Assembly (NCBI GenBank): GCA_031285695.1
Contig: JAITVR010000183.1
Coordinates: forward strand, 1-5,803
DNA length: 5,803 nucleotides
Origin: Prevotellaceae bacterium
Lineage (GTDB): Bacteria; Bacteroidota; Bacteroidia; Bacteroidales; UBA932
Reading direction: 5' to 3'
The position numbers were made by a program, and so were the translations under genes. The notes beneath the pieces were generated by a model. The model worked only from the letters and a program-made list of their open reading frames with translations, made no database searches and was not told the origin of the DNA. Below, in pieces: positions 1,904 through 5,803 of this stretch; position 1 is the stretch's first letter; each line of letters starts with the position of its first letter.

Positions 1904-3892
1904 TTAAAATCTCACACCAATGGTAGCGCCCACCCACACATCGTTGTAGTAGCGGCCGTTGTGGTCGGAGTAAAGAGCGTAGGGCGCTTTGAACTTGGCG
2001 GGGTTGCTGCCTTCGCGGTCGGAATTATATACGTACAGCGCGGGGCCGGCAAATACTGCGAAGTGCTTGGCCAGCTGCTTGAAACCCACCACGCGCAGCT
2101 GCGACAGCCCGTTGTAGCTTTTGTTCCAAAAGAGGTGCTCCGAAATGTTTTGGTGTAAAACTTCAACGTTCATGCCCCAGCTGTTGGGAAAATCAATTTG
2201 AGTACCGAAGCCGAAGCCGTACATCCATTCTTCTCCAAAATTATCGTAGTTCAACGAAACTTCGAGGAAGGTGTATAACTTTTTTGTACCCAAGCGGTAC
2301 GCTGCGCTTACGGTTGATGAGGAGAAGCTAAGTTCGGCCTGCCGCAATCCGCCCCTGCGCGCTATGTTTACCAAGCCTATCATGGCGCCGCTTGCAGTGT
2401 CGGCAATGTTTACCAAGCCCACCTGCGTGCCTGCCGATTTGCTTGCTATGTTGAGCAGGCCGCTGAGCTGAAAGGAGGAGCTTCCGGCAGCGTTTATTAC
2501 ACCTGCCAGCTGAAAGTTTGATGTGTCGGCTACGTTTGCTGCGCCTGCCAGCTGCGTGCTGTTTTTTCCTGCCGAAGCATTTATTACACCTGCCAGCTGA
2601 AAGTCGGCCTGCCGCGCGGCATTGGTAACGCCCGATAATTGCGAGCTGGCGGTGTTGGCAACGTTGAGCACGCCTGCCAGCTGCAGCGCGCTGTTGCCCT
2701 GCGCCGAAAAGTTGGTAATGCCCGCCAGCTGCACATTGTTCTTGCTGTTGTTGGCCATATTTACCGTGCCCGCCAGCTGAATTCCCTCCACGTTTCCCAA
2801 GCTCACATTGGTTATGCCGGCGCCCTGAAAACCCCTCATGCTGTAGCGGTTTACGTTGGCAATGTAGCCCAGCTCAAAGCCTTCTACACCGCCATTGTAG
2901 CCCGCCAAAATATTGAACGAAAAGTTGTAGGTATGCTTTTCGGGCTGCAATTCGGGGAATGAAAACGGGTAAATAAAGGTAAGCAAAAATGGGTGCGCGC
3001 TGTCGGTTTTTACCTCAGCAGGTGCTGCTGCCGCTGCATTTTTTTCAACTACTTCCACCCTTACTTCTACCTCCGGCGTTGCTGTTTTTTCCTCCTGTTT
3101 TTCGGGTGCAACTTCCGGTTGAACTTGCGCAGGCTCTGCGCTCGGCGCGCTGTCGGCAACGCTACTTTCGTTGCGCTGCGTGGTGTCGCTGCTGTTGTTT
3201 GCCCTTGCTTGCGCAACGTGGTTGTTAATTCCGTCGGCGGCAGTTTGTAGCGCCGAAGCGGTGGTTTCGCTAACCTCAACTACTAAAGAGGAAAAACTTT
3301 TCCCAATGTTGTTGAGCTGCGTTGAGAGCGTGCTGTCCTGCGCTTGTGCTGCTGCGCTGCTTGTAGCGATTGCCAGCGTGAGAATGGCCAAATGTTTTTT
3401 CATTACTTCGTTTTTTTTATCGTTTGTAATGATAGGACAATCGCCAAGCTGCGTACCACTATCTGAGTAGCAAAAATTTTTTACGTAAACTTGATTTTTA
3501 ATGTAGCTGCACTCTTTTTTTTCTGCCACAACCGCCTTATCATTAAGTAGTTGCGTTTCTTTTTTTGCAGCCTCAACAGGCTTGATTTTTTTTGCATATT
3601 TTTTTAAAATAACATGCTTTCGCCTCAGCTTATACTCGTATCTTTCGTTCAAAAGTAGGTACAAAGTTTTTTCGGCCGATAGCTTTTGCACCTCTACCGA
3701 AACCAGCTCCGATGCGTCAATGGCGCTTGCGTTGTACGAAAAAGTAAGCCCCGTTTGCAGGCTTATTTCGTCGAGCACCGTTTCCAATGGTTGATTTTTT
3801 GCGCTGAGCGTAACCTCATTTTCGAGCAGGGATTTGGCCTGTGTGTAGCCAACGAGAAAAGTAAAAATGAGCAGGAGGTAAATTTTTTTCAT
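1904..3892 (-). CDS. STN-domain envelope protein fused to a QLAGVxN-repeat, barrel-like protein (662 aa; possibly two genes read through)
   Basis: The start is ATG at 3892, 6 nt after the fecR-like stop. Residues 1-19 are a signal peptide (MKKIYLLLIFTFLVGYTQA). Residues about 25-97 match the STN (secretin and TonB N-terminus short) domain, with PLETVLDEISLQTGLTFSY and a final YKLRRKHVILKK. Residues 125-163 are unlike a domain and are encoded by intergenic-looking DNA. At Met164 a second signal peptide begins (MKKHLAILTLAIATSS). A Pro/Glu/Ala/Val-rich segment follows (about 240-300), then eleven repeats of 14-16 residues (356-512, QLAGVxNxA) resembling LA_2272-type surface repeats. Residues about 520-662 show alternating beta strands and end in VRF, the C-terminal Phe typical of BAM-inserted barrels. 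Position after sigma and FecR suggests a signalling role in which STN contacts FecR in the periplasm. It has no TonB-dependent plug or 22-strand barrel. The function is not established. Confidence 0.5.
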   Translation of the reverse strand: MKKIYLLLIFTFLVGYTQAKSLLENEVTLSAKNQPLETVLDEISLQTGLTFSYNASAIDASELVSVEVQKLSAEKTLYLLLNERYEYKLRRKHVILKKYAKKIKPVEAAKKETQLLNDKAVVAEKKECSYIKNQVYVKNFCYSDSGTQLGDCPIITNDKKNEVMKKHLAILTLAIATSSAAAQAQDSTLSTQLNNIGKSFSSLVVEVSETTASALQTAADGINNHVAQARANNSSDTTQRNESSVADSAPSAEPAQVQPEVAPEKQEEKTATPEVEVRVEVVEKNAAAAAPAEVKTDSAHPFLLTFIYPFSFPELQPEKHTYNFSFNILAGYNGGVEGFELGYIANVNRYSMRGFQGAGITNVSLGNVEGIQLAGTVNMANNSKNNVQLAGITNFSAQGNSALQLAGVLNVANTASSQLSGVTNAARQADFQLAGVINASAGKNSTQLAGAANVADTSNFQLAGVINAAGSSSFQLSGLLNIASKSAGTQVGLVNIADTASGAMIGLVNIARRGGLRQAELSFSSSTVSAAYRLGTKKLYTFLEVSLNYDNFGEEWMYGFGFGTQIDFPNSWGMNVEVLHQNISEHLFWNKSYNGLSQLRVVGFKQLAKHFAVFAGPALYVYNSDREGSNPAKFKAPYALYSDHNGRYYNDVWVGATIGVRF
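2357..2827 (-). repeat. Eleven QLAG(V/I)xN(x)A protein repeats
   Basis: Repeat units begin near residues 356, 372, 388, 404, 418, 432, 447, 461, 475, 490 and 504 of the 662-residue ORF, with spacings of 14-16 residues. The consensus is Q-L-A-G-(V/I/T)-x-N-x-A; the last units shift to QVGLVNIA and MIGLVNIA. Such short hydrophobic/Asn repeats probably form a regular beta solenoid or stacked strands. At DNA level two units share an identical 25-bp stretch (2493-2517 and 2580-2604), 87 bp apart. Confidence 0.5.
3341..3403 (-). other. Internal start and second signal peptide inside the 662-residue ORF
   Basis: ATG at 3403 (Met164) is followed by AAAAAACAT and encodes a complete signal peptide: two Lys, a hydrophobic core (LAILTLAIATSS) and an AxA-type end (AAAQAQ). 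It is preceded by an A-rich leader (GATAAAAAAAACGAAGTA), like real starts in this window. Translation from here gives a 499-residue protein ending at 1904. A signal peptide in the middle of a mature periplasmic protein makes little sense, so an independent start is likely. Confidence 0.5.
3427..3461 (-). promoter_or_regulatory. Promoter-like element, copy B (in front of the internal start)
   Basis: On the minus strand TAGTGGTA (3461-3454), 13 bp, then TTGTCCTAT followed by CATTA (to 3427). The same blocks, at the same 13-bp spacing, precede the sigma gene (copy A). The downstream block ends 28 bp before the ATG at 3403, a normal promoter distance. Conserved blocks around an unconserved spacer look like the -35 and -10 boxes of an alternative sigma factor. 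An A/T run just upstream (3474-3482) could act as an UP-like element. It lies inside an open frame, which is unusual for a promoter. Confidence 0.5.
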
Positions 3893-3898
3893 GCGCGA

Positions 3899-4858
3899 CT
3901 ACTTCTTTTTTAGCACAAAAATGCTGTCCACTTGCGCCACGCTAAGCTGCATGGTTTCGCCAATTACTTCCACAATTTCCTCTATCGCTTCGTTGTCAAA
4001 CGTAGCGCTGATGGACTGCTGCGCCACCGCCGAGTCAACGGCAATGTGCACGCCATACTCCTTATTGAGGAGCGCCAGCGCATCGCTCAAGGGCTTGTCC
4101 TTAAATACAAATAGCTTTGCCGATAAAATAGCGATGTTGGTTTCGCCTTTTTTGAGGCGGGTAAAGGTTTTGCTGCGCTTGTGGTAAATACCGGTTTCGC
4201 CGGCTTGCACCAAAATTCCCTCCTTGTCTTTTGAGTAAAATTGCACCTCGCCGCTTTGCACAAACACCATTACGCTGTCGCTGTCGGGGTAGGCCTGCAC
4301 GTTGAATGATGTGCCGATGTCTTTAATAAAAGTTTCCTCGGCGTGCACCAAAAATTGTCCGCTGCTTGCCTCTGCTATTTCAAAAAATGCTTCGCCTTCG
4401 AGCTGCACCTCGCGTTTTTTGTCGCCGAATTTTCCTACGTAGGCAAGCGAACTTCCTTGGCTCAAATGCACGCTAGTGCTATCTTGCAGCGTATGTTGTT
4501 GTGTCGAATTTTGCGTATTTTCGGCCACCATTTGCAGCGAAGAATTATCAAATCTTATCCACGCAAAAATAGAAAGTCCGATGAGCAAAACAGCCGCTGC
4601 CGCGTAGCGCATCATCGGCTGCCACCACTGAAATTTGGAATTTGAAATTTGAAATTTGGAATCAGCCATGTGCTGCTCAAATTTTTTCCAAGCCTTATCC
4701 ACGTTAGGTTTTGGAGCGCACAGCAGCGCACTGAAGTACGCGCGGTTACCCTCCGATTCGCACAGCCAAGCCTGCAAGGTTTCCTGCTCGCGCGGCGTTG
4801 CCTCGCCACCTAAGTGCCGTGCAATAATGCGGTCTATGTCAGAAAAGTCATGCAACAT
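3899..4858 (-). CDS. FecR-like anti-sigma factor (inner-membrane signal transducer)
   Basis: This 319-residue protein matches the Bacteroidota FecR layout. The cytoplasmic N-terminus (about 5-62, with GGEATPREQETLQAWL and NRAYF) would hold the sigma factor. One membrane segment (about 85-101, AAAAVLLIGLSIFAW) follows. The periplasmic FecR domain is at about 125-225 (STSVHLSQGSSLAY, REVQLEGEAFFEIA, VQAYPDSDSVMVFVQSGEV). A DUF4974-type C-terminal domain is at about 247-316 (FKDKPLSDALALLNKEYGV to the Lys-rich end). Members of the family bind the partner ECF sigma and release or activate it when an outer-membrane partner signals through an STN domain. It starts 9 nt after the sigma gene and ends 6 nt before the STN ORF, so co-transcription is clear. 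An AT-rich repeat (residues about 66-77) is embedded between the sigma-binding part and the membrane segment. The specific signal is unknown. Confidence 0.5.
   Translation of the reverse strand: MLHDFSDIDRIIARHLGGEATPREQETLQAWLCESEGNRAYFSALLCAPKPNVDKAWKKFEQHMADSKFQISNSKFQWWQPMMRYAAAAVLLIGLSIFAWIRFDNSSLQMVAENTQNSTQQHTLQDSTSVHLSQGSSLAYVGKFGDKKREVQLEGEAFFEIAEASSGQFLVHAEETFIKDIGTSFNVQAYPDSDSVMVFVQSGEVQFYSKDKEGILVQAGETGIYHKRSKTFTRLKKGETNIAILSAKLFVFKDKPLSDALALLNKEYGVHIAVDSAVAQQSISATFDNEAIEEIVEVIGETMQLSVAQVDSIFVLKKK
4630..4662. repeat. GAAATTTGGAAT low-complexity repeat inside the fecR-like coding region
   Basis: The 12-mer GAAATTTGGAAT occurs at 4630-4641 and 4651-4662, 21 bp (seven codons) apart, joined by TTGAAATTT. 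On the coding strand it reads as SKFQISNSKFQ (residues about 67-77), a low-complexity linker just before the membrane segment. The repeat keeps the reading frame. Its style matches the AAATTTCAAATTCC-type repeats that, from memory, litter intergenic DNA in many Bacteroidota. Confidence 0.5.
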
Positions 4859-4867
4859 GGCGTTTTT

Positions 4868-5443
4868 CTACAGTTTGATAAAAAACAAAAATGCAGCTAT
4901 CGGCAAAAATTCTTTTAGGCTTTCGCGCAGCAATCGCAGCGCTTTGGCCATGTGGTTTTCTACAGTATTGCGCGAAATTTGCAGCTGCTCTGCAATTTCT
5001 TGGTACGACAAATTTTCAACTCTGCTCAGTTCAAAAACTTTGCGCGCCTGCGCCGGCAGCTGCGCTACGGCGCGGCTCAGTTCCTGCTGTAGTTCGCTGT
5101 GCTCCACGCGGCTGTTGGTGCTATCGTGCGCCTCCTCGTTCACGTGCAAAAACTCGCTGCGGTGCTTTGCGCGAATGTTGCTGTGCTTAATTCGGTTGAG
5201 GCAGTGGTTGTGCACCGCGCGGTACAGGTACGATTTTAGCGACAGCTGCACCTCAATTTCCTCGCGCTTATCCCACAGCGTGCAGAACGTTTTTTGCACC
5301 ATTTCCTCCGCCTCGTCCATATCGTGCAGCAGCGAGCAGGCGTAGGTGCACAGCGCGCTGTACCACGATTTAAAAACCGCTTCGTACGCCTCGTGATTTC
5401 CGTCTTTAAGCTGCGCTAAAATATTTTCGGTTTCGCTCACCAA
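4868..5443 (-). CDS. ECF RNA polymerase sigma factor, FecI-like (Bacteroidota expansion family)
   Basis: This 191-residue protein has sigma-70 region 2 at about 19-88 (AYEAVFKSWYSALCTYA, DEAEEMVQKTFCTLWDKR, LKSYLYRAVHNHCLNRIK). Region 4 is at about 120-172 (LPAQARKVFELSRVENLSY, then the helix-turn-helix QEIAEQLQISRNTVENHMAKAL). A short hydrophobic tail (LPIAAFLFFIKL) is common in Bacteroidota FecI-like factors. Regions 1 and 3 are absent, as expected for an ECF factor of usual length. The start is TTG at 5443 or the next codon, GTG at 5440; a TAA two codons upstream of the TTG blocks any earlier start, and the first internal ATG is in the middle of region 2. It heads the operon with the FecR-like gene, so it should be held inactive by that protein and may transcribe its own operon. 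The targets are not known; the two repeated promoter-like elements are candidates. Confidence 0.5.
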   Translation of the reverse strand: MVSETENILAQLKDGNHEAYEAVFKSWYSALCTYACSLLHDMDEAEEMVQKTFCTLWDKREEIEVQLSLKSYLYRAVHNHCLNRIKHSNIRAKHRSEFLHVNEEAHDSTNSRVEHSELQQELSRAVAQLPAQARKVFELSRVENLSYQEIAEQLQISRNTVENHMAKALRLLRESLKEFLPIAAFLFFIKL

Positions 5444-5461
5444 TTTTTACGTTGAAGAGCG

Positions 5462-5493
5462 CAAATATACAAATTCTGTTGCTTAAATTCAAA
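5462..5493 (-). promoter_or_regulatory. Bacteroidota housekeeping-type promoter of the sigma operon
   Basis: On the minus strand TTTG (5493-5490), a 20-nt spacer, then TATATTTG (5469-5462) match the Bacteroidota primary sigma consensus (TTTG at -33, TAnnTTTG at -7). The predicted start is only about 10-15 nt before the TTG/GTG start of the sigma gene, giving a short leader. This would supply basal expression. Confidence 0.5.
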
Positions 5494-5508
5494 AAAACAG
5501 TCCTCATT

Positions 5509-5543
5509 TAATAATAGGACAACTGAAGGGCGCACTACCACTA
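5509..5543 (-). promoter_or_regulatory. Promoter-like element, copy A (upstream of the sigma gene)
   Basis: On the minus strand TAGTGGTA (5543-5536), 13 bp, then TTGTCCTAT followed by TATTA (to 5509). Compared with copy B, the first block is 8/8 identical and the second 13/14, with spacers of equal length but different sequence. Both copies have an A/T run just upstream. It lies about 65-70 bp before the sigma start, upstream of the housekeeping-type promoter. It may be the autoregulated promoter of the encoded ECF factor, or a paired operator. Confidence 0.5.
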
Positions 5544-5594: not shown

Positions 5595-5803
5595 CTAAAT
5601 GGGGGAGAGGGTAACCACGGGTATAAGCATTTCTTCCATCGAAATTCCGCCGTGCTGAAAGGTGTTGCGGTAGTACTTTACGTTGTGGCCGTAGTTGTTG
5701 GGATAGACTAAGAAGTCGCGGTTGCGGGCAAAAACGTAGCTGCTCGAAAGGTTGGTGCGCGGCAAAAATGCCTGCTCGGGTTTTTTGATTTCAAAAACTT
5801 CCT
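5595..5803 (-). CDS. porX: PglZ-domain response regulator, PorX-like (C-terminal 68 codons only)
   Basis: The frame enters from the right edge and ends with TAG at 5597-5595. The 68 residues seen include FLPRTNLSSSYVFARNRDF, YPNNYGHNVKYYRNT, and a final QHGGISMEEMLIPVVTLSPI. The HGGIS-(L/M)-EEM-(I/L)-(I/V)P ending is characteristic of PglZ (alkaline-phosphatase-like) domains. The short tail just after it fits PorX, which joins a receiver domain to PglZ and regulates the type IX secretion system with the kinase PorY. The His of HGG is probably a metal ligand. The receiver domain is outside the window, so another PglZ protein is not excluded. It reads toward the sigma operon, with 151 bp between the genes. 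No clear terminator follows it, so some read-through into the operon is possible. Confidence 0.5.
   Translation of the reverse strand, partial: EVFEIKKPEQAFLPRTNLSSSYVFARNRDFLVYPNNYGHNVKYYRNTFQHGGISMEEMLIPVVTLSPI

Follow-up and report, generated by a model that had tools for sequence, protein, structure and literature searches.

A two-box element upstream of an ECF sigma factor gene and within the adjoining sensor-like gene of a Prevotellaceae bacterium as a candidate ECF promoter

Why should the same short element stand both in front of a sigma factor gene and in the middle of a long open reading frame (ORF) of the same locus? This question is raised by a 5,803-nucleotide (nt) stretch of DNA from a Prevotellaceae bacterium (GenBank assembly GCA_031285695.1, contig JAITVR010000183.1), referred to in its full length as the window, which carries genes for an extracytoplasmic function (ECF) sigma factor, a FecR-type anti-sigma factor and a protein predicted to join an STN-type domain to a barrel. 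An initial annotation of this DNA had put forward two copies of the element as candidate ECF promoters, one of them autoregulatory, and as far as sequence can test, this proposal is supported. Our analysis suggests that the element is very probably the promoter of the window's own ECF sigma factor, which would turn on the operon that encodes it, an STN-less barrel protein and at least one TonB-dependent receptor (TBDR) encoded elsewhere.

The two-box element in the window

Both copies lie on the minus strand, at 5543-5509 and 3461-3427, and read TAGTGGTA-N13-TTGTCCTAT-(T/C)-ATTA. They were located by pattern search and conservation, as follows:

5509..5543, minus strand: sigma-proximal copy, consisting of TAGTGGTA (-35-like), N13, TTGTCCTAT (-10-like) and TATTA
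3427..3461, minus strand: internal copy, in the reading frame of the STN-barrel gene and 28 base pairs (bp) 5' of an internal ATG

The consensus of the element comprises a -35-like TAGTGGTR and a -10-like TTGTCnTA with 13-bp spacing. The positions of both copies and the differing sequences of their 13-bp spacers were exactly as first described, and the boxes alone match between the copies, which are not embedded in longer repeats. An A/T-rich run 5' of each copy, also described previously, was seen by eye. When the window was searched with TAGTGGTA-N13-TTGTCCTAT, allowing up to 3 mismatches, it yielded just these two sites, each with 0 mismatches, while shuffled windows gave a mean of 0.01 matches and reached two in 0 of 200 shuffles. 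With 13 bp separating TAGTGGTA from TTGTC, the spacing is compatible with the -35/-10 geometry of ECF promoters.

The sigma-proximal copy is separated by 70 bp from the TTG that opens the sigma ORF. At the internal copy, the previously reported 28 bp between TTGTCCTAT and the internal ATG (3403-3401) was confirmed by measurement. This copy is itself coding, being in frame within the 662-amino-acid (aa) ORF at 3892-1904, where it specifies part of DSGTQLGDCPIITN.

Conservation of the element with the sigma factor

We examined 11 genomes of the window's genus, in which eight loci are either the window or contain a sigma at 60-70% identity; three of the genomes (G001, G005 and G006, 50-87% complete) were without a close sigma orthologue. 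The genome that holds the window is itself 77% complete and split into 255 contigs. The sigma-proximal copy was present in six of the eight loci and the internal copy in all eight. Beyond the genus, we applied a matrix trained exclusively on sites of the window's genus (12 sites) to 28 held-out sigma loci gathered via sigma alignment, and scored a locus as positive when a site of at least 15 bits occurred within 400 nt upstream of the sigma. Ten of the 28 loci passed, all of them among the 12 non-genus Bacteroidales, with scores of 15.9-24.5 bits (seven at 20 bits or above). In these 12 loci, 500 column-permuted matrices detected a mean of 0.02 loci and a maximum of one, and the antisense strand gave none. 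Varying the spacer from 9 to 17 returned 10 loci at 13 bp, one at 10 bp and none at the remaining lengths. Across 35 whole loci, training loci included, 30 sites scored at least 16 bits against 2 for the reversed control, and 19 against 0 reached 22 bits. The initial annotation had made conservation at orthologous loci a touchstone of its proposal, and such conservation was found both within the genus and beyond it, in 10 of 12 further Bacteroidales loci. At the level of sequence, then, the boxes upstream of the sigma gene are conserved together with the sigma across species, with their spacing fixed and their orientation that of the sense strand.

In addition, a diverged version of the element, TCAGGGTA-N13/14-GTGTC, was recognised in the Saprospiraceae. 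With at most 1 mismatch, it was found in nine of 12 loci at a distance of 37-90 nt upstream of the matched sigma region, the exceptions being L107, L108 and L110. A second copy, this one exact and on the opposite strand, stands before a divergent gene in six loci (L112, L115-L118 and L122), and a third, also exact, precedes a DUF2807 gene approximately 3.5 kb downstream in L112, L115 and L122. The divergent gene encodes a TBDR by Pfam in L115; the genes of L105 and L115 were compared by BLAST, and the others were recognised as TBDRs by eye from their starts. When at most 2 mismatches were allowed, spacers of 12, 13, 14 and 15 gave 10, 11, 14 and 9 real matches against 0, 5, 0 and 0 in the reversed sequences, the real counts including repeated counting of the same site at shifted spacers.

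The internal copy and the two forms of the STN-barrel gene

The genes around the element, all on the minus strand, encode the following products:

4868..5443, minus strand: ECF sigma factor, 191 aa, start TTG 5443 or GTG 5440 (TIGR02985, Sigma70_r2, r4_2)
3899..4858, minus strand: FecR-type anti-sigma factor, 319 aa (PF04773, FecR, and PF16344, FecR_C, both above cut-offs)
1904..3892, minus strand: long form, 662 aa, with signal peptide, STN, disordered linker, beta-rich repeats and barrel (from the ORF, PF07660 and a predicted model)
3599..3817, minus strand: STN signalling domain, residues 26-98 of the long form (model block; predicted local distance difference test score, pLDDT, mostly 77-88)
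1904..3403, minus strand: short form predicted from the internal ATG, 499 aa, with a signal-peptide-like N-terminus and an LA_2272-type barrel
3338..3403, minus strand: second signal-peptide-like sequence MKKHLAILTLAIATSSAAAQAQ, residues 164-185 (by eye)

The sigma factor matched TIGR02985 with 167.8 bits (cut-off 126.4), and its gene adjoins that of the FecR-domain anti-sigma factor, as in FecI/FecR-type systems. The long form matched PF07660 (STN) with an E-value of 6e-5, under the family cut-off, and showed a weak match to the LA_2272 surface repeat, likewise under its cut-off. The predicted model of the 662-aa protein (mean pLDDT 65), which was used for domain layout alone, has an STN-like fold at residues 26-98, a low-confidence linker at about 101-295 and a beta-rich region at 299-661. 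Using Foldseek, the STN part was matched weakly to the signalling domains of PupA and PupB (target template modelling scores of 0.71 and 0.68, E-values of 0.14 and 0.24), and a PDB structure search with the long-form model returned nothing at an E-value of 0.001 or below. By these weak profile and structure matches, the sigma locus encodes a predicted STN-type periplasmic signalling domain. This domain sits on an LA_2272-type barrel, and neither a Plug nor a TonB_dep_Rec match was obtained for the long form in family scans.

The internal copy occupies an identical codon phase in 15 of 15 related loci. From it to the next in-frame methionine, the gap is 28 nt in nine of these loci (L092 has methionines at both 25 and 28 nt). 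L093 and L097 have the methionine at 31 nt and the four Dysgonomonas loci at 85 nt, although L103 of the latter has an additional one at 40 nt. By overall count, the gap is 25-37 nt in 12 of the 15 loci. In the window this residue is M164, which is invariant in 9 aligned proteins and nearly invariant in 14. A signal-peptide-like sequence, judged by eye, follows the internal methionine in all 15 loci except L106. The fused layout with an internal copy was found in the window's genus, G017/L098, L097, L101, L109 and Dysgonomonas.

A plausible history, as far as can be read from these genes, is that an STN gene and a downstream barrel gene became one, the latter bringing along its promoter and signal peptide. 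We found 184 barrel homologues; among the best 120 of the 184, some are fused to an STN domain and others, about 360-450 aa long, stand alone. In five distant STN-barrel fusions (P0016, P0033, P0050, P0051 and P0117), inspection of the full sequences by eye revealed no such internal start. A site before a stand-alone barrel in L108 scored 10.7 bits and was judged too weak to be retained.

Could the second signal-like segment serve a purpose other than starting a separate protein? The long ORF might encode a polyprotein that signal peptidase cuts at this segment into an STN protein and a barrel, so that the internal promoter would just add barrel. The frame is open through the STN-barrel junction in 15 of 16 loci of the fused type, the window included, despite linkers of varying length, which suggests selection for the long product, and the second signal-like segment has been retained as well. 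The exception to the open frame, L106 of Dysgonomonas mossii (11481-12005), keeps the STN part alone as a 174-aa ORF with the second element copy, the barrel being gone and a TBDR ORF coming next. Against cleavage, STN-barrel fusions in other parts of the phylum commonly have no segment of this kind, which means that the working sensor can be an uncut fusion. We regard the polyprotein as an unlikely, if serious, alternative to an uncut long form.

A second alternative is that the internal copy has no promoter function and has been kept for the peptide it encodes, DSGTxLDDCxIIT of the long protein. The copy is indeed in frame, the peptide is conserved in the genus, and the flanking codons are conserved as well: identity was 0.95 and 0.94 in the two boxes, 0.85 in the preceding 30 nt, and 0.80 in the spacer and following sequence. 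Several features nevertheless speak against a purely coding role. The same boxes at the same spacing occur in non-coding DNA before the sigma gene, and across 10 loci the boxes retained 0.94 and 0.91 identity against 0.68 for the spacer. Two Paludibacter loci (L100 and L102) carry their second copy (25.0 and 25.6 bits) before a separate surface-protein gene that follows an unfused gene 3, and a methionine with a signal-peptide-like start lies downstream at a near-constant gap. Retention for the peptide's sake thus appears improbable. A promoter of the sigma itself placed in frame inside the sensor gene would amount to an isoform switch with built-in feedback, recurring in at least six Bacteroidales lineages; we put this forward tentatively, as a possibility somewhat short of even.

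The window also contains features outside the element and the genes listed above. Within the fecR coding sequence, a short repeat, GGAATTTGAAATTTGAAATTTGG (4637-4659), encodes the peptide SKFQISNSKFQ; with at most 2 mismatches it has 16 copies in the genome against 0 for the reversed pattern, and it is dispersed and possibly mobile. Located 3' of the barrel ORF, at 1813-1901, is a near-perfect inverted repeat with 25-nt arms of 88% complementarity and a 32-nt loop, which may be a terminator or a repeat element. The minus strand of 1-1464 holds an open-ended ORF for a BACON/FISUMP-domain surface protein, with no link to the element as far as was seen. Just 5' of the candidate sigma promoter, at 5595-5801 on the minus strand, lies the C-terminal end of a PorX-like response regulator of the type IX secretion system, which matched NF052313 with 102.9 bits, below the cut-off of 300.

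The predicted regulon and its relation to known signalling systems

Where else does the element occur? With at most 1 mismatch, TAGTGGTR-N13-TTGTCHTA gave 20 matches against 3 for the reversed control in the 11 genus genomes, and 17 against 64 in 49 other genomes. Twelve exact sites were present in the genus genomes, of which six are internal copies, two are sigma-proximal and four are off-locus, and the internal copies are the only ones located within a sense ORF. All four off-locus sites (G000:C160, G002:C110, G010:C100 and G003:C42, G000 being the window's genome) lie upstream of TBDR-type genes. Exact copies are therefore not scattered over unrelated coding DNA, a distribution that the initial annotation had named as damaging to its proposal: eight of 12 are in sigma loci and the other four before TBDR-type genes. 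The gene behind the G003:C42 copy (L156, 2910-3311) is a 133-aa TBDR remnant with the CarbopepD_reg part only.

The TBDRs of G002 and G010 fall, at 37-39% identity, in the same subfamily as the TBDRs divergent from the sigma in Saprospiraceae. The G000:C160 TBDR, with a DUF4249 gene behind it, shares its subfamily with the TBDR of the TBDR-DUF4249 pair ending the Dysgonomonas sigma operon (41% identity). The element-bearing receptors of one lineage are thus of kinds that are genetically linked to the sigma in another. In a domain scan, the element-bearing TBDRs gave CarbopepD_reg, Plug and/or barrel matches and no STN match. Among one-mismatch sites, one in G000 (C2, 21.3 bits) precedes a DUF2807 lipoprotein gene, and another (C201, 19.6 bits), before a ketoacyl-synthase-III-like gene, was kept as a candidate only.

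Several candidates were set aside. An order-wide exact search of 392 other genomes returned 7 sites, spread over 6 of these genomes, against 22 for the reversed control. Four of the sites are antisense within ORFs, the roughly 3 kb around each site showed no homologue of the sigma, of FecR or of the STN-barrel protein, and all 7 were treated as chance. No relative of the sigma was found in viral contigs. A loose search of the window's genome with GTGGTA-N13-TTGTCCTAT at 3 mismatches gave 39 matches against 23 for the reversed control, a count that was not used; loose-pattern counts were discarded in general, and we relied on position-aware tests and on the stricter pattern, in which the leading TA is included.

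A number of results weigh against a promoter of this sigma as the nature of the element. At the sigma gene, the sigma-proximal copy is absent in two of the eight genus loci (L090 and L093) and in L096, which fails the held-out test. L097 fails the upstream test too and has a strong copy (22.2 bits, position 2224) at the sigma/FecR junction, where the anti-sigma would be the regulated gene. The genus matrix reached 15 bits in 0 of the 16 held-out loci that are non-Bacteroidales or distant (best 14.1), and the Saprospiraceae version was picked by eye from weak matrix hits at a comparable position in other Bacteroidota and then tested on the same 12 Saprospiraceae-type loci. As for the internal copy, part of its conservation is coding conservation, the qualifying codons for a synonymous-codon test (3 for box A, 2 for box B) were too few to decide, and the copies of L101 and L109, both exactly 28 nt from the methionine, reach only 11-12 bits. 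At the predicted targets, one of the seven off-locus genus sites with at most 1 mismatch (G001:C200) is antisense to an ORF, and GTGGTR-N13-TTGTCHTAT, which has no leading TA, gave 22 matches at 1 mismatch in the genus against 24 for the reversed control. The element is missing in 19 of 22 TBDR-A relatives (three carry it), in seven of eight genus DUF2807 loci (one carries it), in seven of seven orthologues of the C201 gene and in nine of nine orthologues of the G000:C160 TBDR (best 5.0 bits). Given the last result, a single conserved target receptor was dropped and target turnover was adopted instead.

Weak copies of 11-11.6 bits were also seen at the sigma/FecR junction of L107 (2271) and L108 (10569). 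In the element-less TBDR orthologues (L125-L132), a TTAC-TTTG stretch before the start resembles TAnnTTTG, the consensus of the Bacteroidota housekeeping -7 box given in the excerpted text of PMC7366714, which suggests a promoter swap.

The weakest explanation, that the element is an operator for a separate activator or repressor co-regulating the sigma operon and the receptor genes, strikes us as highly improbable: fixed-spacing conserved boxes cannot by themselves separate a promoter from an operator, and some paralogous sigma factors do share the genomes (G000 has eight sigma matches), but the boxes are asymmetric and always sense at functional sites, track the sigma clade across families, diverge in sequence alongside the sigma in Saprospiraceae, and have a 13-bp gap that suits ECF promoters.

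We therefore favour the element as a promoter of the window's sigma. We infer that this sigma, and not a paralogue, would read the element, that transcription would begin there, and that the short barrel would be produced. The long STN-barrel form would take the sensor role, and a signal at its STN domain would relieve the FecR anti-sigma. The freed sigma would then amplify its own operon from 5543-5509, drive the STN-less barrel from 3461-3427 and switch on the off-locus TBDR. Once the response is on, the internal promoter would tip the balance from a signalling-competent to a signalling-incompetent barrel, and the STN-less form might either dilute or end signalling or merely supply barrel as an output.

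This arrangement resembles the FecI/FecR/FecA system (E. coli fec; PupA/PupB) in that an ECF sigma gene lies beside that of a FecR-family anti-sigma factor, an STN-type domain is encoded, and TBDRs are among the predicted targets. In E. coli, according to parts of PMC9249621, FecA interacts through its signalling domain with the C-terminal part of FecR, and fecIR is not autoregulated. Here, by contrast, one copy of the element belongs to the sigma operon and another is placed within the sensor gene; the barrel that bears the STN domain has no TonB-receptor domain, and no STN match was obtained for the TBDRs behind the element. The Bacteroides polysaccharide-locus systems, as portrayed in sections of PMC3878776, similarly place a Bacteroidota ECF sigma and FecR-like anti-sigma over outer-membrane uptake genes; there the periplasmic anti-sigma domain is said to contact SusC-like porins, whereas no SusD gene was seen here. 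The G000:C160 target, a TBDR followed by a DUF4249 gene, is reminiscent of BT2172/BT2173, a TBDR and DUF4249 pair in a conserved operon for which the excerpts of PMC11003636 mention no sigma link; in our case such a pair follows the element and in Dysgonomonas ends the sigma operon.

Excerpts of PMC3878776, PMC7366714 and PMC12596196 indicate that Bacteroidota genomes encode dozens of ECF sigmas, with few promoters known. Prediction of ECF promoters is called challenging in part of PMC3878776, and by the excerpted account of PMC7366714, a motif is known for EcfO of B. fragilis, while none was known for the ECFs of B. thetaiotaomicron. Among known Bacteroides ECF motifs, that of EcfO is the closest. 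In the open-licence literature, we found neither the present element nor a comparable internal ECF promoter described. Relative to known FecI/FecR-type signalling, the novel part is the internal in-frame copy.

Taken together, our results give one ECF sigma clade a concrete candidate promoter, a regulon that can be listed from sequence and a target prediction that extends across families. If the internal copy works, it would account for a promoter and a second signal peptide in mid-ORF, and would provide a compact route to a sensor and its signalling-dead version from one gene.

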